Shown here: in pieces, positions 3,983 through 9,739 of the stretch
How positions within the stretch are numbered: position 1 is the stretch's first letter
Layout of the letters: each line of letters starts with the position of its first letter
Assembly (NCBI GenBank): GCA_012517475.1
Contig: JAAYUV010000102.1
Coordinates: 1 to 46,054 of the forward strand
DNA length: 46,054 nucleotides
Source: Peptococcaceae bacterium
GTDB lineage: Bacteria; Bacillota; Desulfitobacteriia; Desulfitobacteriales; Syntrophobotulaceae
Direction: 5' to 3'
Made by a program: the position numbers and the translations under genes
The notes under the pieces: generated by a model
The model's input: only the letters and a program-made list of their open reading frames with translations
Told to the model about the DNA's origin: nothing
Databases searched by the model: none

Positions 3983-4028
3983 AATTACACCTCTTCTCCC
4001 TAAAAATCTTTCATCGCAGTCAAATCAC

Positions 4029-4039
4029 CGGTCTGACCA
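4029..4039. promoter_or_regulatory. GntR/FadR-type operator in lutC leader
   Basis: On the minus strand TGGTCAGACCG, one base short of the TGGTNNNACCA palindrome. It lies some 20-30 bp downstream of the -10 box at 4060-4065, a position suited to repression. Same motif as at 413-448. Confidence 0.5.
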
Positions 4040-4059
4040 CCATGCCACCCTTTTTACTT

Positions 4060-4088
4060 ATCATATAATAAATTATTTGAAAATTCAA
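4060..4088 (-). promoter_or_regulatory. Sigma-A promoter of lutC-lutBA
   Basis: Minus strand: -35 TTGAAT (4088-4083), 17-bp spacer, -10 TATGAT (4065-4060). It is about 80 bp upstream of the lutC start. Confidence 0.6.
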
Positions 4089-4189
4089 TTCCAATTTAAT
4101 ATATTTTTTACTTTATTATTCATATTTACCTTAATTACCTTATACAAGACATAAATAAATCCTATTTCCATTTGAATAAAGCGAGTTAA

Positions 4190-4232
4190 TAAAAAATAAA
4201 AATCAGGGTCTCTGGAAGATGACCCTGATTTT
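4190..4232 (-). terminator. Terminator of the malyl-CoA operon (after malic enzyme)
   Basis: AAAATCAGGGTC (4199-4210) pairs perfectly with GACCCTGATTTT (4221-4232), and on the minus strand the stem runs into a T-rich tail (TTTTTATTTTTT). It lies 35 bp after the malic enzyme stop. Confidence 0.85.
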
Positions 4233-4266
4233 GGCAAATTATCCTGCACCGTAAGTTTATAAATGT

Positions 4267-5523
4267 TTATTTGTATTGATTAGCAAGTCTCTTCTTAAGG
4301 TTTTCAGCAATTACCTTTGGATCCATCGGATTTCTGGCAATTCCTGAATCCATGGCTGCCTGAGCTGTAGCTGCAGCAACTGCAGGAGCTACTTCAGGAT
4401 TGAATGCACTAGGAATAATGAAGTTTGCATTTAATTCTTCCGGTTTTACGCAGGAAGCGATTGCTTTAGCAGCAGCAATCTTCATAGCATCATTAATATC
4501 GGTAGCTCTAACGTCAATAGCTCCACGGAACATTCCGGGGAATGCAAGAACGTTATTAATCTGATTATGAACGTCGGAACGACCTGTAGAAATAACAGCT
4601 GCGCCAGCATTGATAGCTCTTTCAATCGGCCAAATTTCAGGAATTGGGTTGGCTTGAGCAAAAACGATAGGATCTTTAGCCATGGATTTAATCATATCTT
4701 CGTCGATGGAATCAGGAACAGATACGCCGATGAAAACATCTGCGCCTTTAATTACGTCTCTCAGGCTGCCTGAAAGTTTTTCAGGATTGGTAGCAGCAGC
4801 AATCTGCTCTTTCCAGGGGTTCATACCTTCTTTACGTCCTTGATAGATAGCACCCTTGGTGTCGCACATAATAACGTTCTTCAGGCCTTCAGCCATGAGC
4901 AGCTTGATAATAGCAATACCGGCAGCGCCTGCACCGTTGGCAACAACTTTGATATCTTCAATTTTCTTGCCAACAACTTTGAGAGCATTGTAAAGACCGG
5001 CAAGTGTAACAACAGCGGTTCCATGTTGGTCATCATGGAAAATAGGTCCTTTGAAAATTCCGCGGGCTTTCAGGGCTTCTTCAATCATGAAGCACTCAGG
5101 AGCTTTAATGTCTTCTAAGTTTACGCCGCCAAAAGTAGGTCCCATCAGCTCAACAAGTTCAACAATTTTATTGGTGTCATTGGTGCTAACGCAGATGGGG
5201 AAAGCATCAACATCACCAAATGCTTTAAAGAGAAGCGCTTTTCCTTCCATAACCGGCATAGCAGCTGCTCCGCCCAGGTTACCAAGGCCAAGAATAGCGG
5301 TTCCGTCAGAAACGATGCAAACATAGTTAGCATGGTTTGTATAAACATCAAGATTAGCATACTCAGCAGCGATTTCTTTAACAGGCTCAGCTACTCCGGG
5401 GGAATAAGCCAGGGTCAAATCATCCCTGTTAGCAGCAGGGCAGGTTACTCTTACTTCTAATTTACCAGGTTTTGCAGCGTGAAATGCAAGAGCTTCTTCA
5501 CGAAGATTTTTAATACGTGACAT
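4267..5523 (-). CDS. NAD(P)-dependent malic enzyme (malate to pyruvate + CO2)
   Basis: 418 aa, the usual length of the short bacterial malic enzymes that lack the C-terminal phosphotransacetylase-like domain. Visible landmarks are the catalytic Tyr in LAYSPGVAEP (Y40), catalytic Lys in VMEGKALL (K95), metal ligands in the EDIKAPECF (137-145) and HDDQHGTA (163-170) segments, and a Rossmann loop NGAGAAG (196-202). The second strand ends in an Asp (CDTKG), which favours NAD over NADP. It is the last gene of the ligase - Fe-S protein - ligase - lyase - malic enzyme operon, separated from the lyase gene by 170 bp with a 16-bp hairpin. In this setting it would oxidatively decarboxylate malate from malyl-CoA to pyruvate. 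SD: GGAAAG before ATG 5523. Confidence 0.93.
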   Translation of the reverse strand: MSRIKNLREEALAFHAAKPGKLEVRVTCPAANRDDLTLAYSPGVAEPVKEIAAEYANLDVYTNHANYVCIVSDGTAILGLGNLGGAAAMPVMEGKALLFKAFGDVDAFPICVSTNDTNKIVELVELMGPTFGGVNLEDIKAPECFMIEEALKARGIFKGPIFHDDQHGTAVVTLAGLYNALKVVGKKIEDIKVVANGAGAAGIAIIKLLMAEGLKNVIMCDTKGAIYQGRKEGMNPWKEQIAAATNPEKLSGSLRDVIKGADVFIGVSVPDSIDEDMIKSMAKDPIVFAQANPIPEIWPIERAINAGAAVISTGRSDVHNQINNVLAFPGMFRGAIDVRATDINDAMKIAAAKAIASCVKPEELNANFIIPSAFNPEVAPAVAAATAQAAMDSGIARNPMDPKVIAENLKKRLANQYK

Positions 5524-5644
5524 GTCTAAATCTTCCTTTCATAATAATATATATGTTTTATTCTTTGTATTTCTTCGGTATTTATTATGTTGGTGTACTG
5601 GTAAAATAATCTTAGATGCTTGTTCCTTCTGTAACAAGCACAAA

Positions 5645-5693: not shown

Positions 5694-6581
5694 TTATTTC
5701 TTGCCTTCTTTAGCATCAATTTCAGCTTGGGCAGCAAGAATGTCTTTAGCGTTAAGGTATACAGGGGTATCAACCATTTTTCCATTGTAGGAAACAGCGG
5801 CTTTACCTTTAGCAATACCTTCTTCTTCGAAGACTTTAACAACACCGATAGCCCACTCAACATCAGCCGGATCTGGAGCATACATACGGTTGGAAGGTTC
5901 GATTTGGCTTGGATGAATAATCATACGGCCTTCATAACCCATTTGTTTGCCTTCAGCAACGTTTCTTTCGAAAGCGGGGATATCCTGGAATGCTACGAAA
6001 GGAGCATCAATAGCGACAATACCTGCAGCTCGGCAAGCTACGCCAACTTTTGCACGACCCCAAGTCTGCTCAACAGCCTCGGAAGTGAGTTTAACTCTCA
6101 TGTCACGGCAATAGTCAACTGCGCCAAAGATGGCATTTACGTTACGTTTGCTGGCCATGCAGCATTCATAAGCATTCATGATACCTTTTGCAGTTTCGAG
6201 AAGCATGGAAATTTTAACACTTCCAACTTCTAAGCCACGACGGCGCTCGAGTTCTTCGAGTTTCCAGTCAAGGCGCTTTACATCATCGGGATGACCGGTT
6301 TTAGCAAGTGTAACACCGGAAAGTCCTTCCCATACTACTGCTTCGAGGTCGTCATTGGTCAGTTCGGTTTCCCAGTTATTGATACGAACAAATACTAAGG
6401 AACCATTCTGTCCTACATACTTAAGATTTTCAGCAACAGTTTTTCTAGCGTTTTCTTTCTCGGCCGGTGGAACGGAATCTTCCAGGTCTAAAGTAATGAT
6501 GTCAGCAGGGAAAGTCGGAGCTTTCTCCACCATTTTAGGGTTATTTCCCGGTACATAGAGAATAGAGCGCATTACAGCCAT
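5694..6581 (-). CDS. HpcH/HpaI-family CoA-ester lyase (CitE-like), probable malyl-CoA lyase
   Basis: 295 aa from ATG 6581, chosen because AAGGAGG lies 9 bp upstream; the reading frame is open further upstream, but the extra residues are basic and unlike the family. Family landmarks: SILYVPGNNP (6-15), DLEDSVPPAEK (32-42; acidic metal ligands), VRINNW (Arg 66), MLLETAKGI (Glu 129), FGAVDY (Asp 156) and IIHPSQIEP (about 210-218). CitE, malyl-CoA lyase and citramalyl-CoA lyase share this fold. No citrate lyase alpha (CitF) or gamma (CitD) gene is near, and both neighbours act on malyl-CoA or malate, so condensation of glyoxylate with acetyl-CoA to malyl-CoA (reversible) is the best inference. 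A role as citrate lyase beta is unlikely here. Confidence 0.8.
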   Translation of the reverse strand: MAVMRSILYVPGNNPKMVEKAPTFPADIITLDLEDSVPPAEKENARKTVAENLKYVGQNGSLVFVRINNWETELTNDDLEAVVWEGLSGVTLAKTGHPDDVKRLDWKLEELERRRGLEVGSVKISMLLETAKGIMNAYECCMASKRNVNAIFGAVDYCRDMRVKLTSEAVEQTWGRAKVGVACRAAGIVAIDAPFVAFQDIPAFERNVAEGKQMGYEGRMIIHPSQIEPSNRMYAPDPADVEWAIGVVKVFEEEGIAKGKAAVSYNGKMVDTPVYLNAKDILAAQAEIDAKEGKK

Positions 6582-6701: not shown

Positions 6702-7598
6702 TTAGGCTTTAATTTTTTCTTTGAGGATTTTTGGAATGTCGGTCGGAGTTTGAGCTACAAAACCGCCGGCTTTGGTGATAGCTTCCATTTTGCTCTTAGC
6801 AGATCCACGACCACGCTCAACAATGTTGGAAGCATGGGAGAAACGCTGACCTTCAGGAGCCCAAGCACCAGCAACATAAATAACGAAAGGTTTGGTAAAT
6901 TTGCCTGCAGCAATTACTTCTGCACACTCTTCTTCTTGGGAACCGCCGATTTCAGCATAGACAGCTACACCTTTGGTTTCCGGATCTGCTTCGAAGAGAG
7001 GAAGAAGATCTGCCATGGATGTTCCGAGAACTGGCTCGGTTCCGGTATGAACAACCGTGCTGACACCGAAGCCGCCTTCTCTTAATACCCAGGGAATCGT
7101 ACCGGATTGTCCGCCGCTGCGGGAGAATACACCGATATTACCCTTTTGGAAGAATTTGTTTGCCCATTCTTTGTTACCGCCGAGCCAGCCAACTACGGCT
7201 TCACCAGGGGTAAGAATTCCGATGGAGCCAGGTCCGATCAGGCGGGTTCCTTTCAGCTTACAGTAAGCTACCATTTCCATAATATCATGGATAGGAGTGC
7301 CTTCTACGCAAGGAATAACATTTTTAACGCCTGCATCAGCTGCTTCAAATACAGCAGTCTTTAATACACTGCCCGGTACAAAGATAACGCTGAAATCAAC
7401 TTCACCTTGTTCCCTGACGATTTCTTTTACAGAATTGTAAACAGGAATGCCATGAACTTCTTCACCCTTTTTACCAGGGCTGGTTCCGCCGATAACTTTT
7501 GTACCATATTCCTTCATGTATTTGGTCCTTACGGATCCTTCACGACCGGTAATCCCTTGGATAACTACCTTCGTGTCTTTATTAATCAATATGCCCAT
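6702..7598 (-). CDS. sucD: ADP-forming acyl-CoA ligase alpha subunit (SucD/MtkB-like; malate- or succinate-CoA ligase)
   Basis: 298 aa, normal SucD/MtkB length. N-terminal CoA-binding Rossmann domain (VVIQGITGREG, 11-21) followed by the ligase domain with GNIGVFSRSGGQSG (153-166). The phospho-histidine is His 255 in RFSHASN, where SucD usually has GHAGAI; the change is compatible with MtkB-type or other branch members. It lies 56 bp after the Fe-S protein gene and two genes after the beta subunit. SucD and malate thiokinase alpha cannot be separated by motifs alone; the lyase and malic enzyme downstream argue for malate + CoA + ATP <-> malyl-CoA, run toward ATP. SD GAGGGAT upstream of ATG 7598. 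Confidence 0.88.
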   Translation of the reverse strand: MGILINKDTKVVIQGITGREGSVRTKYMKEYGTKVIGGTSPGKKGEEVHGIPVYNSVKEIVREQGEVDFSVIFVPGSVLKTAVFEAADAGVKNVIPCVEGTPIHDIMEMVAYCKLKGTRLIGPGSIGILTPGEAVVGWLGGNKEWANKFFQKGNIGVFSRSGGQSGTIPWVLREGGFGVSTVVHTGTEPVLGTSMADLLPLFEADPETKGVAVYAEIGGSQEEECAEVIAAGKFTKPFVIYVAGAWAPEGQRFSHASNIVERGRGSAKSKMEAITKAGGFVAQTPTDIPKILKEKIKA

Positions 7599-7654: not shown

Positions 7655-7945
7655 TTAGGCTAAACCGCGTTTTGCGAGATACGCATCGAGTCCTTCAATA
7701 GGAACATCGATTTGAATCGCTTGATTGCCGTCAAATTTGCAAGCAATTTCACAGGCCAGACATTCTGTACCTAAACGGAGAACTTCATCAGCGCTCATAT
7801 GGGCTACGGATGGCTTTCCGTCAACAATTTGCAATACGCCTCTGGCAAATTTCTTGCATGCATCGGCACACGCTTTGGTTGCGCATGTGTCGCACTTGCT
7901 GGTATCTACTTTAACAGTAATACTTTTTTCTTTGATTTCCAGCAC
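7655..7945 (-). CDS. Small seven-cysteine Fe-S (ferredoxin-like) protein inside acyl-CoA ligase operon
   Basis: 96 aa. Cysteines at 18, 21, 26 and 30 (C-x2-C-x4-C-x3-C) and at 62, 65 and 69 (C-x2-C-x3-C); the second set lacks the fourth Cys of a normal 4Fe-4S motif. No signal peptide or membrane segment. It starts 9 bp after the stop of the ligase beta gene, so the two are probably translationally coupled, and the alpha gene follows 56 bp later. Fe-S proteins are not part of known succinyl-CoA or malate-CoA ligases, so the job is open: an electron carrier for a glyoxylate or pyruvate oxidoreductase, or a structural partner of the ligase. I do not recognise a named family. Confidence 0.85.
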   Translation of the reverse strand: MLEIKEKSITVKVDTSKCDTCATKACADACKKFARGVLQIVDGKPSVAHMSADEVLRLGTECLACEIACKFDGNQAIQIDVPIEGLDAYLAKRGLA

Positions 7946-7954
7946 AGTATTTCC

Positions 7955-9229
7955 CTACTTTCCTTGAGCTTCTTTCTCGGCTCTGTACTCTTTAGCCAGA
8001 GCTGCGAGTCTTTCGCCGATGAATTTAGTATCTGTAACATGCTCTTTTCCGTAGATTTCGACTCTCTTGCCAGGACCGTCCGGAGTCATAAGATCTGCTA
8101 AGCCTTTACGCAGGATTTCCAGAGACTCATCTTCCCTGTTACCGCAGAGAAGCAGTACGCAAGGCAGACCTGGTTTCTTCGGAAGTTCTTCCCAAAGTAC
8201 CTTAACCATTGCATTGGCATGGTGCCACTGTTCCTGGTTAGCCATCATGAAACCACCGAGAAGGTAGCCGTCAAGATTAGGCTGGGAAAGAACGCATTTA
8301 GCAACACGATAAATTTTGGATCCAACCGGGTTTCCGGAAGTATCAGCATAGTTGGCCGGTTTTAACCCTACTTGGTTCAAAGCATCTAATCCCATCATAG
8401 CGGAACCGCCGCCGATTGGATGATAACCAACATGACCGGGGCTAACTTCATCATAATTCATATTCATAAGGAAGCCAGTACCGCGCGCATCGGTTTCTTC
8501 GATGCTCCATCCGATAATATCCAGTTCAGTAGCTTCACCAGGAAGGTCACGGGCAATCTTAATCCCAAATTCCGGATGACGTCCAACGGAACTATTGTCA
8601 ATTTCCATCTTGCAGTCCGCACAGATCAAAGCGCCGCTGCCTGTCATGACAAAGGGGTTGATTTCCAAGGTCTGACAGTCATACTTCTTATGAGTCTGAG
8701 CTAACTTTGTGAGGAAAGATGCAAATTTGCTGATATCTTTGTCAGGAATTCCTGCTTTAACACAAAGATCAACTGCATCATAAATTTGGAAACCAAAAAT
8801 GGGATCGATATTTACTTTATGAATTAACTCTTCCGGAACACTTTCAATGTCCATACCGCCTTCGGTACTGAACATCATCATTGGGCTGCGTGCTTCTTTT
8901 GCATTGTTAATAACGATTGAACAATAAAATTCTTTCTTGATATCAAGTTTTTCTTCAATGAGTACTTGACGAACAGGAAGTCCTTTTACTGTCTTTGACA
9001 TAATCTCGGCTGCTGCTGCAGCTGCTTCATCAGGAGTGTTAACCAGTTTAACGATACCGGCTTTACCACGTCCGCCAGCCTGTACTTGGCCCTTTACTGC
9101 AACAGGACCGCCGATCCACTCCGCAACTTGCTTAGCTTCTTCCGGGGAAGATGCCGCTCTTCCTTTTGGAACCGGCATACCAGCTTTTCCAAGCCATTCC
9201 TTACCCTGATACTCTAGAAATTTAGCCAT
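7955..9229 (-). CDS. sucC: ADP-forming acyl-CoA ligase beta subunit (SucC/MtkA-like)
   Basis: 424 aa, about 35 longer than typical SucC (388). N-terminal ATP-grasp domain with VKGQVQAGGRGKAG (45-58), metal site Glu 189/Asn 191 (LEINPF) and Asp 205, then the CoA-ligase domain with GGGSAMMG (273-280) and LLCGNRED. With the alpha subunit it interconverts acyl-CoA + ADP + Pi and acid + CoA + ATP. First gene of the malyl-CoA operon; the promoter is some 510 bp upstream (9740-9768), leaving a long leader with a structured repeat element. SD GGAAGGGA 7 bp before ATG 9229. Succinate or malate specificity is not decided by sequence; context favours malate. Confidence 0.88.
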   Translation of the reverse strand: MAKFLEYQGKEWLGKAGMPVPKGRAASSPEEAKQVAEWIGGPVAVKGQVQAGGRGKAGIVKLVNTPDEAAAAAAEIMSKTVKGLPVRQVLIEEKLDIKKEFYCSIVINNAKEARSPMMMFSTEGGMDIESVPEELIHKVNIDPIFGFQIYDAVDLCVKAGIPDKDISKFASFLTKLAQTHKKYDCQTLEINPFVMTGSGALICADCKMEIDNSSVGRHPEFGIKIARDLPGEATELDIIGWSIEETDARGTGFLMNMNYDEVSPGHVGYHPIGGGSAMMGLDALNQVGLKPANYADTSGNPVGSKIYRVAKCVLSQPNLDGYLLGGFMMANQEQWHHANAMVKVLWEELPKKPGLPCVLLLCGNREDESLEILRKGLADLMTPDGPGKRVEIYGKEHVTDTKFIGERLAALAKEYRAEKEAQGK

Positions 9230-9342
9230 GCATTATCCCTTCCATAAAGAAATTTTGTTCCATAACTTTTGTCAAACTCAAAAAGTCGAATAATTCCTTA
9301 CTTAGAAGTATACCCCCCCCTCTTTATTTAATTAGCATACCC

Positions 9343-9543
9343 AGGTTGACATGTTTATTGCGACGGCCATGGAAACGGCAAACGTTGTGCCTAATTTCAG
9401 CCATGCCACAGTGGGCATAAATGGCTGATGGCATCGAGCGGTTGACCGCCATGGGACCTTGTGCCGCGATGCACATGTCGCTGAAGCCACGGATGGCGTG
9501 AAGCGACGATGCCAGGACGGCATAAAGCGGCTAACAGTCAAAT
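9343..9543 (-). repeat. GC-rich hairpin-rich repeat element in operon leader
   Basis: About 200 bp, clearly richer in GC than its flanks. Hairpins: CAGCCAT...ATGGCTG enclosing GCC-ACAGTG-GGC (about 9398-9427), GCGGT-TG-ACCGC (9438-9449), GCGA...TCGC (9466-9481) and ATGCC-AGGAC-GGCAT (9509-9523). ATGCC(A)...GGCATAAA occurs twice in direct orientation, about 106 bp apart. Ends are loosely inverted (TTGACATGTT at the left, TTGACTGTTA reading in from the right). On the minus strand the order AGCCGCT, CGCCATCCGTGGC, AGC, GCATCG matches the element at 45915-46054. Confidence 0.5.
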
Positions 9544-9739
9544 CTATTAGTTCAGCTTCGTTAACCCGGTATGAATAAAATATTGATATAGACACCACGA
9601 GGGCTTTTCATTGAGTCAAATGCCGCCTAAAAAAAATCATTATAACGACCTTTGACCAAAAAAGCCGCAATGTGTCGATAACACAATAATAATGTAGAAA
9701 ATGTTGTTTCACTATTTAAAACAGAGTTTCATTATTAAT

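Follow-up and report, generated by a model that had tools for sequence, protein, structure and literature searches.

A Seven-Cysteine Ferredoxin-Like Protein as a Probable Third Subunit of an ADP-Forming CoA Ligase Predicted to Act on 2-Hydroxy-Dicarboxylates

Introduction

The ADP-forming CoA ligases SucCD and MtkAB consist of an ATP-grasp beta subunit and a CoA-binding alpha subunit with an active-site His, and the ligase described here shares both their subunits and their fold. The citryl-CoA synthetase CcsAB (PDB 6hxq) provides a further parallel, as it is a two-subunit ligase that uses a 2-hydroxy acid and functions ahead of a C-C lyase. According to an earlier note on this DNA, no Fe-S partner is known for acyl-CoA ligases. 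This agrees with our literature search, limited to open-access papers and incomplete, which yielded nothing relevant either on this operon or on a CoA ligase with an Fe-S subunit or partner. Here we describe a 46,054-nucleotide stretch of DNA from a Peptococcaceae bacterium (the window) in which the gene for a small ferredoxin-like protein, FeS, is found within a CoA ligase operon, and weigh the explanations for its presence.

The Ligase Operon

The operon is read from the minus strand in the order LigB, FeS, LigA, CitE-type lyase, and malic enzyme (Table 1), with a LUD protein and an LdhH-like iron-sulfur dehydrogenase located further downstream on the same strand. Only 9 bp separate the LigB stop codon (TAG, 7957-7955) from the GTG start of FeS, while 56 bp separate the FeS stop codon from LigA, and the window sequence thus bears out the earlier placement of FeS 9 bp after one ligase subunit and before the other. 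The ribosome-binding stretch of FeS is located inside the end of LigB, a layout that is also observed in relatives.

The Pfam scores of the ligase genes are above the respective cut-offs (PF08442, 175 bits against 29.5; PF02629, 82.7 against 22.3; PF00549, 38.4 against 24.5), and judged by their sequences LigB and LigA together make up a succinyl-CoA-synthetase (SCS)-type ADP/GDP-forming CoA ligase. The FSHAS motif of LigA aligns with the GHAG motif of SucD-like sequences, and LigA therefore retains the His that is catalytic in SCS-type alpha subunits. Upstream of LigB there is a GC-rich stretch (window 9330-9560) containing repeated ggc/atgg words. An Rfam search of the window, including this stretch, returned no match, nor did a plasmid search.

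Table 1. Features of the ligase operon in the window
Feature	Position	Strand	Evidence
LigB, 424 aa, ATP-grasp beta subunit of ADP-forming CoA ligase	7955..9229	-	Pfam ATP-grasp_2, 175 bits; tree clade
LigB tail and TAG stop overlapping FeS ribosome-binding stretch, ggaaagTAGgga	7946..7965	-	sequence; relatives alike
FeS, 96 aa, seven-Cys ferredoxin-like protein, GTG start	7655..7945	-	sequence, alignment, fold model
Cys motif I, C18-x2-C21-x4-C26-x3-C30	7856..7894	-	kept in 53 distinct sequences except C21 of L078
Gly59 codon, place of eighth Cys in distant homologs	7769..7771	-	alignment
Cys motif II, C62-x2-C65-x3-C69	7739..7762	-	invariant in 53 distinct sequences
LigA, 298 aa, CoA-binding alpha subunit with SCS active-site His (FSHAS)	6702..7598	-	Pfam CoA_binding, Ligase_CoA; alignment
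CitE/HpcH-type lyase, likely malyl-CoA lyase (substrate from context)	5694..6581	-	Pfam HpcH_HpaI, 152.8 bits
Malic enzyme, pathway context	4267..5523	-	Pfam malic, Malic_M

The FeS Protein

The minus-strand ORF confirms the 96-aa protein noted earlier at 7655-7945, including the spacings claimed for its cysteines, which number seven in all within the 96 codons. Alignment of 53 distinct homologs indicates that C18, C26, C30, C62, C65, and C69 are present in every sequence (53/53) and C21 in 52/53; the side chains E61, E66, and G73 are likewise found in 53/53. Given this conservation, the seven-Cys pattern is far from chance. Position 59 is Gly in 50 of the 53 sequences, Cys in two, and Asp in one. 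The description of the second Cys motif as incomplete holds up, since the two distant homologs L038 and L076 carry an extra Cys at this position. By analogy with dicluster ferredoxins, we take C18, C21, C26, and C69 to make up site I and C30, C62, and C65, together with position 59, to make up site II.

The matches of FeS to Pfam ferredoxin families are below cut-off (Fer4_6, 17.6 bits against 25; Fer4_7, 14.6 against 27), as is that to the curated equivalog model of OorD, the ferredoxin subunit of 2-oxoacid oxidoreductase (14.6 bits against 93). A structure model of FeS alone, built on an alignment that includes eight loci drawn from the wider genome search, is of medium confidence (pLDDT 72.5). 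A Foldseek search of this model against the PDB gave nothing at E<=0.001, and its best structural matches, with Z scores of 5.0-6.7 (all under 8), are ferredoxin domains, comprising hydrogenase ferredoxin domains, ferredoxins, a pyruvate:ferredoxin oxidoreductase subunit, and ABCE1. FeS would thus be a small protein with a predicted dicluster-ferredoxin fold. The main conclusion, that FeS is most likely a ligase subunit, is independent of this model. Co-folding of LigB and FeS (mean pLDDT 56.3) produced no usable complex model.

Distribution and Linkage to LigB

The distribution of FeS was probed in three genome samples, consisting of 61 relatives, 299 genomes of the window's phylum, and 297 genomes of the phylum of Desulfospira (G351). 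FeS is found in 40 of the 61 relatives, and this branch of LigB is found in the same 40. Each of the 41 FeS genes of the relatives comes just after LigB and shares its strand and contig, at a distance of 50-280 bp in six cases and less in the remainder. In the window's phylum, LigB (at least 289 bits) and strong FeS matches occur in the same 13/299 genomes, and one genome (G178) has a weak FeS match (E 4.7e-4) with no such ligase adjoining. In the phylum of Desulfospira, LigB (at least 230 bits) and strong FeS matches again share the same genomes (18/297), with weaker FeS matches in genomes that do not have LigB. The order LigB-FeS-LigA with a CitE-type lyase is also present in three genomes of the phylum of an Actinobacteria MAG (G352). 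Because the genomes of each sample are kin, and the counts therefore non-independent, no probability is attached to these numbers. The search for the beta-FeS-alpha order that had been called for earlier thus finds it recurring across relatives and other phyla, and the 41/41 FeS genes of the relatives exclude an order restricted to this genome.

A tree of 22 FeS-type and 16 other LigB sequences places the FeS-type LigB on one side of a single branch (support 100/97). Furthermore, in one genome (L076) LigB and FeS are encoded by a single 522-aa ORF (3992-5557) with FeS at the C-terminus of LigB, the only such fusion observed. Two other candidate fusions were rejected. A LigB-FeS chain made by read-through of the stop codon would call for a shared frame, which is found in many loci and absent in many others, and is also countered by the overlap of the LigB stop with the FeS ribosome-binding stretch. 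An apparent FeS-LigA fusion (L077/G611) comes from an ORF that crosses an assembly N.

Several irregular loci were also observed. Near the base of the clade, L130 (G388) has no detected FeS and a beta-alpha gap of ~290 bp containing FeS-like pieces in two frames, which point either to a disrupted gene or to faulty assembly; this locus was counted neither for nor against co-occurrence. In two distant genomes, an in-frame TAG replaces the Glu of relatives in LigB, at codon 80 of L034 (G072) and at codon 189 of L054 (G379), where it falls in the conserved EINP motif. These are either nonsense mutations or sequencing errors.

Pathway Context

Judged by gene context, the ligase of the window would be a malate-CoA ligase. 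The glycolate oxidase GlcD, scoring above its cut-off, adjoins the operon in the Desulfofustis and Desulfospira loci, which supports a glyoxylate/malyl-CoA pathway and fits the malyl-CoA route of glyoxylate use put forward for Syntrophobotulus glycolicus, as described in PMC8092247, and the glycolate-degrading life style of this organism (PMC3156405). In Ca. Dichloromethanomonas elyunquensis strain RM, LigB-FeS-LigA, a CitE-type lyase, and malic enzyme are present (L021:4717-9692), although strain RM is said to be without canonical malyl-CoA lyase genes (PMC8092247). Two Desulfobacterota-group loci have formyltransferase-like genes (Fmt family, below cut-off) in the neighborhood of the operon (L027:3517-4431 and L077:5987-6892).

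Elsewhere the neighbors of the operon differ. In L043 and L038 the ligase is accompanied by a fumarase-type hydratase and a citryl-CoA-lyase-like protein, with methylaspartate ammonia-lyase close by, a neighborhood that would fit citramalate rather than malate. L076 has fumarate-reductase-like (by sequence reading) and fumarase-like genes, LigA, and a citryl-CoA-lyase-like gene. In L078, a CitE-like lyase is found together with MmgE/PrpD genes. FeS is retained in all of these loci, across the change from a CitE-type to a citrate-synthase-type lyase.

Role of FeS

Gene order, co-occurrence, a single LigB clade, the fusion, and the Cys pattern are all read from the sequences, and taken together they make it probable that the ligase, which would be an ADP-forming enzyme for 2-hydroxy-dicarboxylates, has FeS as a dedicated third subunit. 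This is the best reading because of the natural fusion, the overlap between the LigB tail and the FeS ribosome-binding stretch, and the strict co-occurrence. The co-occurrence, fixed place, clade, fusion, and retention through the lyase change argue for assigning FeS to the ligase rather than to an adjoining oxidation. The third subunit suggested by the earlier note is well supported by the co-occurrence, the fixed place, the overlapping translation signals, and the fusion. These fall short of proof, and gene order and co-occurrence can also arise for a protein that works with the ligase but is not bound to it.

In the proposed mechanism, physical binding, clusters, substrate, direction, and the role of FeS are predicted features. 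FeS would form a dicluster-ferredoxin domain seated on LigB; in one genome it is part of the LigB chain. Of its two predicted sites, the first would be a complete [4Fe-4S] site (C18, C21, C26, C69), and the second would have three Cys (C30, C62, C65). The substrate here is most likely malate, with the ligase converting malyl-CoA + ADP + Pi to malate + CoA + ATP beside a putative CitE-type malyl-CoA lyase (acetyl-CoA + glyoxylate) and malic enzyme. The clusters would mainly keep the shape of the FeS domain and set or regulate ligase assembly, with the passing of electrons less likely. This structural or assembly role, with possible regulation, is preferred to electron transfer, given that FeS is linked to no oxidoreductase and that site II varies among copies.

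The clusters may have a more active role, sensing redox state or oxygen to switch the ligase and thereby gate malyl-CoA-driven ATP formation or the wasteful reverse reaction. The redox sensor proposed in the earlier note is compatible with the observations; as a special case of the subunit reading, it is a tentative possibility. Labile three-Cys cluster sites occur in known sensors; the three-Cys site II of most FeS copies could be labile, and FeS is confined here to loci resembling anaerobe pathways, whereas two distant copies have eight Cys. It is similarly doubtful, though conceivable, that these anaerobes have a ligase clade in which an obligate iron-sulfur subunit makes ATP formation dependent on redox state or oxygen. 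No description of redox or oxygen control of this ligase class was found in the searchable (open-access) literature.

The earlier note also suggested that FeS is the carrier for glyoxylate or pyruvate oxidation. As a soluble electron carrier for neighboring glycolate, glyoxylate, or pyruvate oxidation, FeS would be inside the ligase operon by chance. Its ferredoxin-like fold matches, the LdhH-like dehydrogenase near the operon, and GlcD near it elsewhere are consistent with such a role. However, FeS tracks LigB and no oxidoreductase, was fused once to LigB, and stays when the neighboring pathway changes. Consequently, a carrier role is disfavored and appears unlikely. Least probable is that site II has an open iron to which the 2-hydroxy acid substrate binds, as in aconitase and class I fumarase. 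In its favor, most copies have G59 and hence three Cys at site II, and the likely substrates are 2-hydroxy-dicarboxylates. Against it, the eighth Cys of two distant copies means that this cannot be general, and the SCS His kept in LigA makes new chemistry unneeded.

A third subunit of this kind would give a textbook enzyme class an iron-sulfur subunit, and anaerobes that use glycolate and glyoxylate would offer a case in which control of ATP formation by a metal cluster can be tested. In addition, the FeS gene could serve as a marker for malyl-CoA- and citramalyl-CoA-type ligases that are unnamed by current family models.

Comparison with Known Systems

Both subunits match CcsAB in sequence (E 4.7e-38 for LigB and 3.4e-47 for LigA), and the 6hxq record has a large and a small subunit among the matches seen. 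FeS resembles the bacterial dicluster [4Fe-4S] ferredoxins in its two Cys motifs and in the matches of its model (Z 5.0-6.7), and differs from them in having seven Cys, an x4 spacing in motif I, no CP, and scores below the Pfam cut-offs. ABCE1 (Rli1) is similar by analogy, in that a ferredoxin-like domain is attached to a nucleotide-driven enzyme (fold match Z 5.0-5.4); in contrast, that enzyme is unrelated and FeS has a gene of its own in almost every genome. The window's ligase falls below the curated equivalog cut-offs for SucCD (beta 237.3 against 370, alpha 271.1 against 336), and its beta subunit scores 163 bits where the cut-off for MtkAB, the malate-CoA ligase, is 604. Unlike SucCD and MtkAB, the ligase described here has the FeS gene between its beta and alpha genes, and the FeS-type LigB forms a clade apart from the FeS-free homologs sampled.
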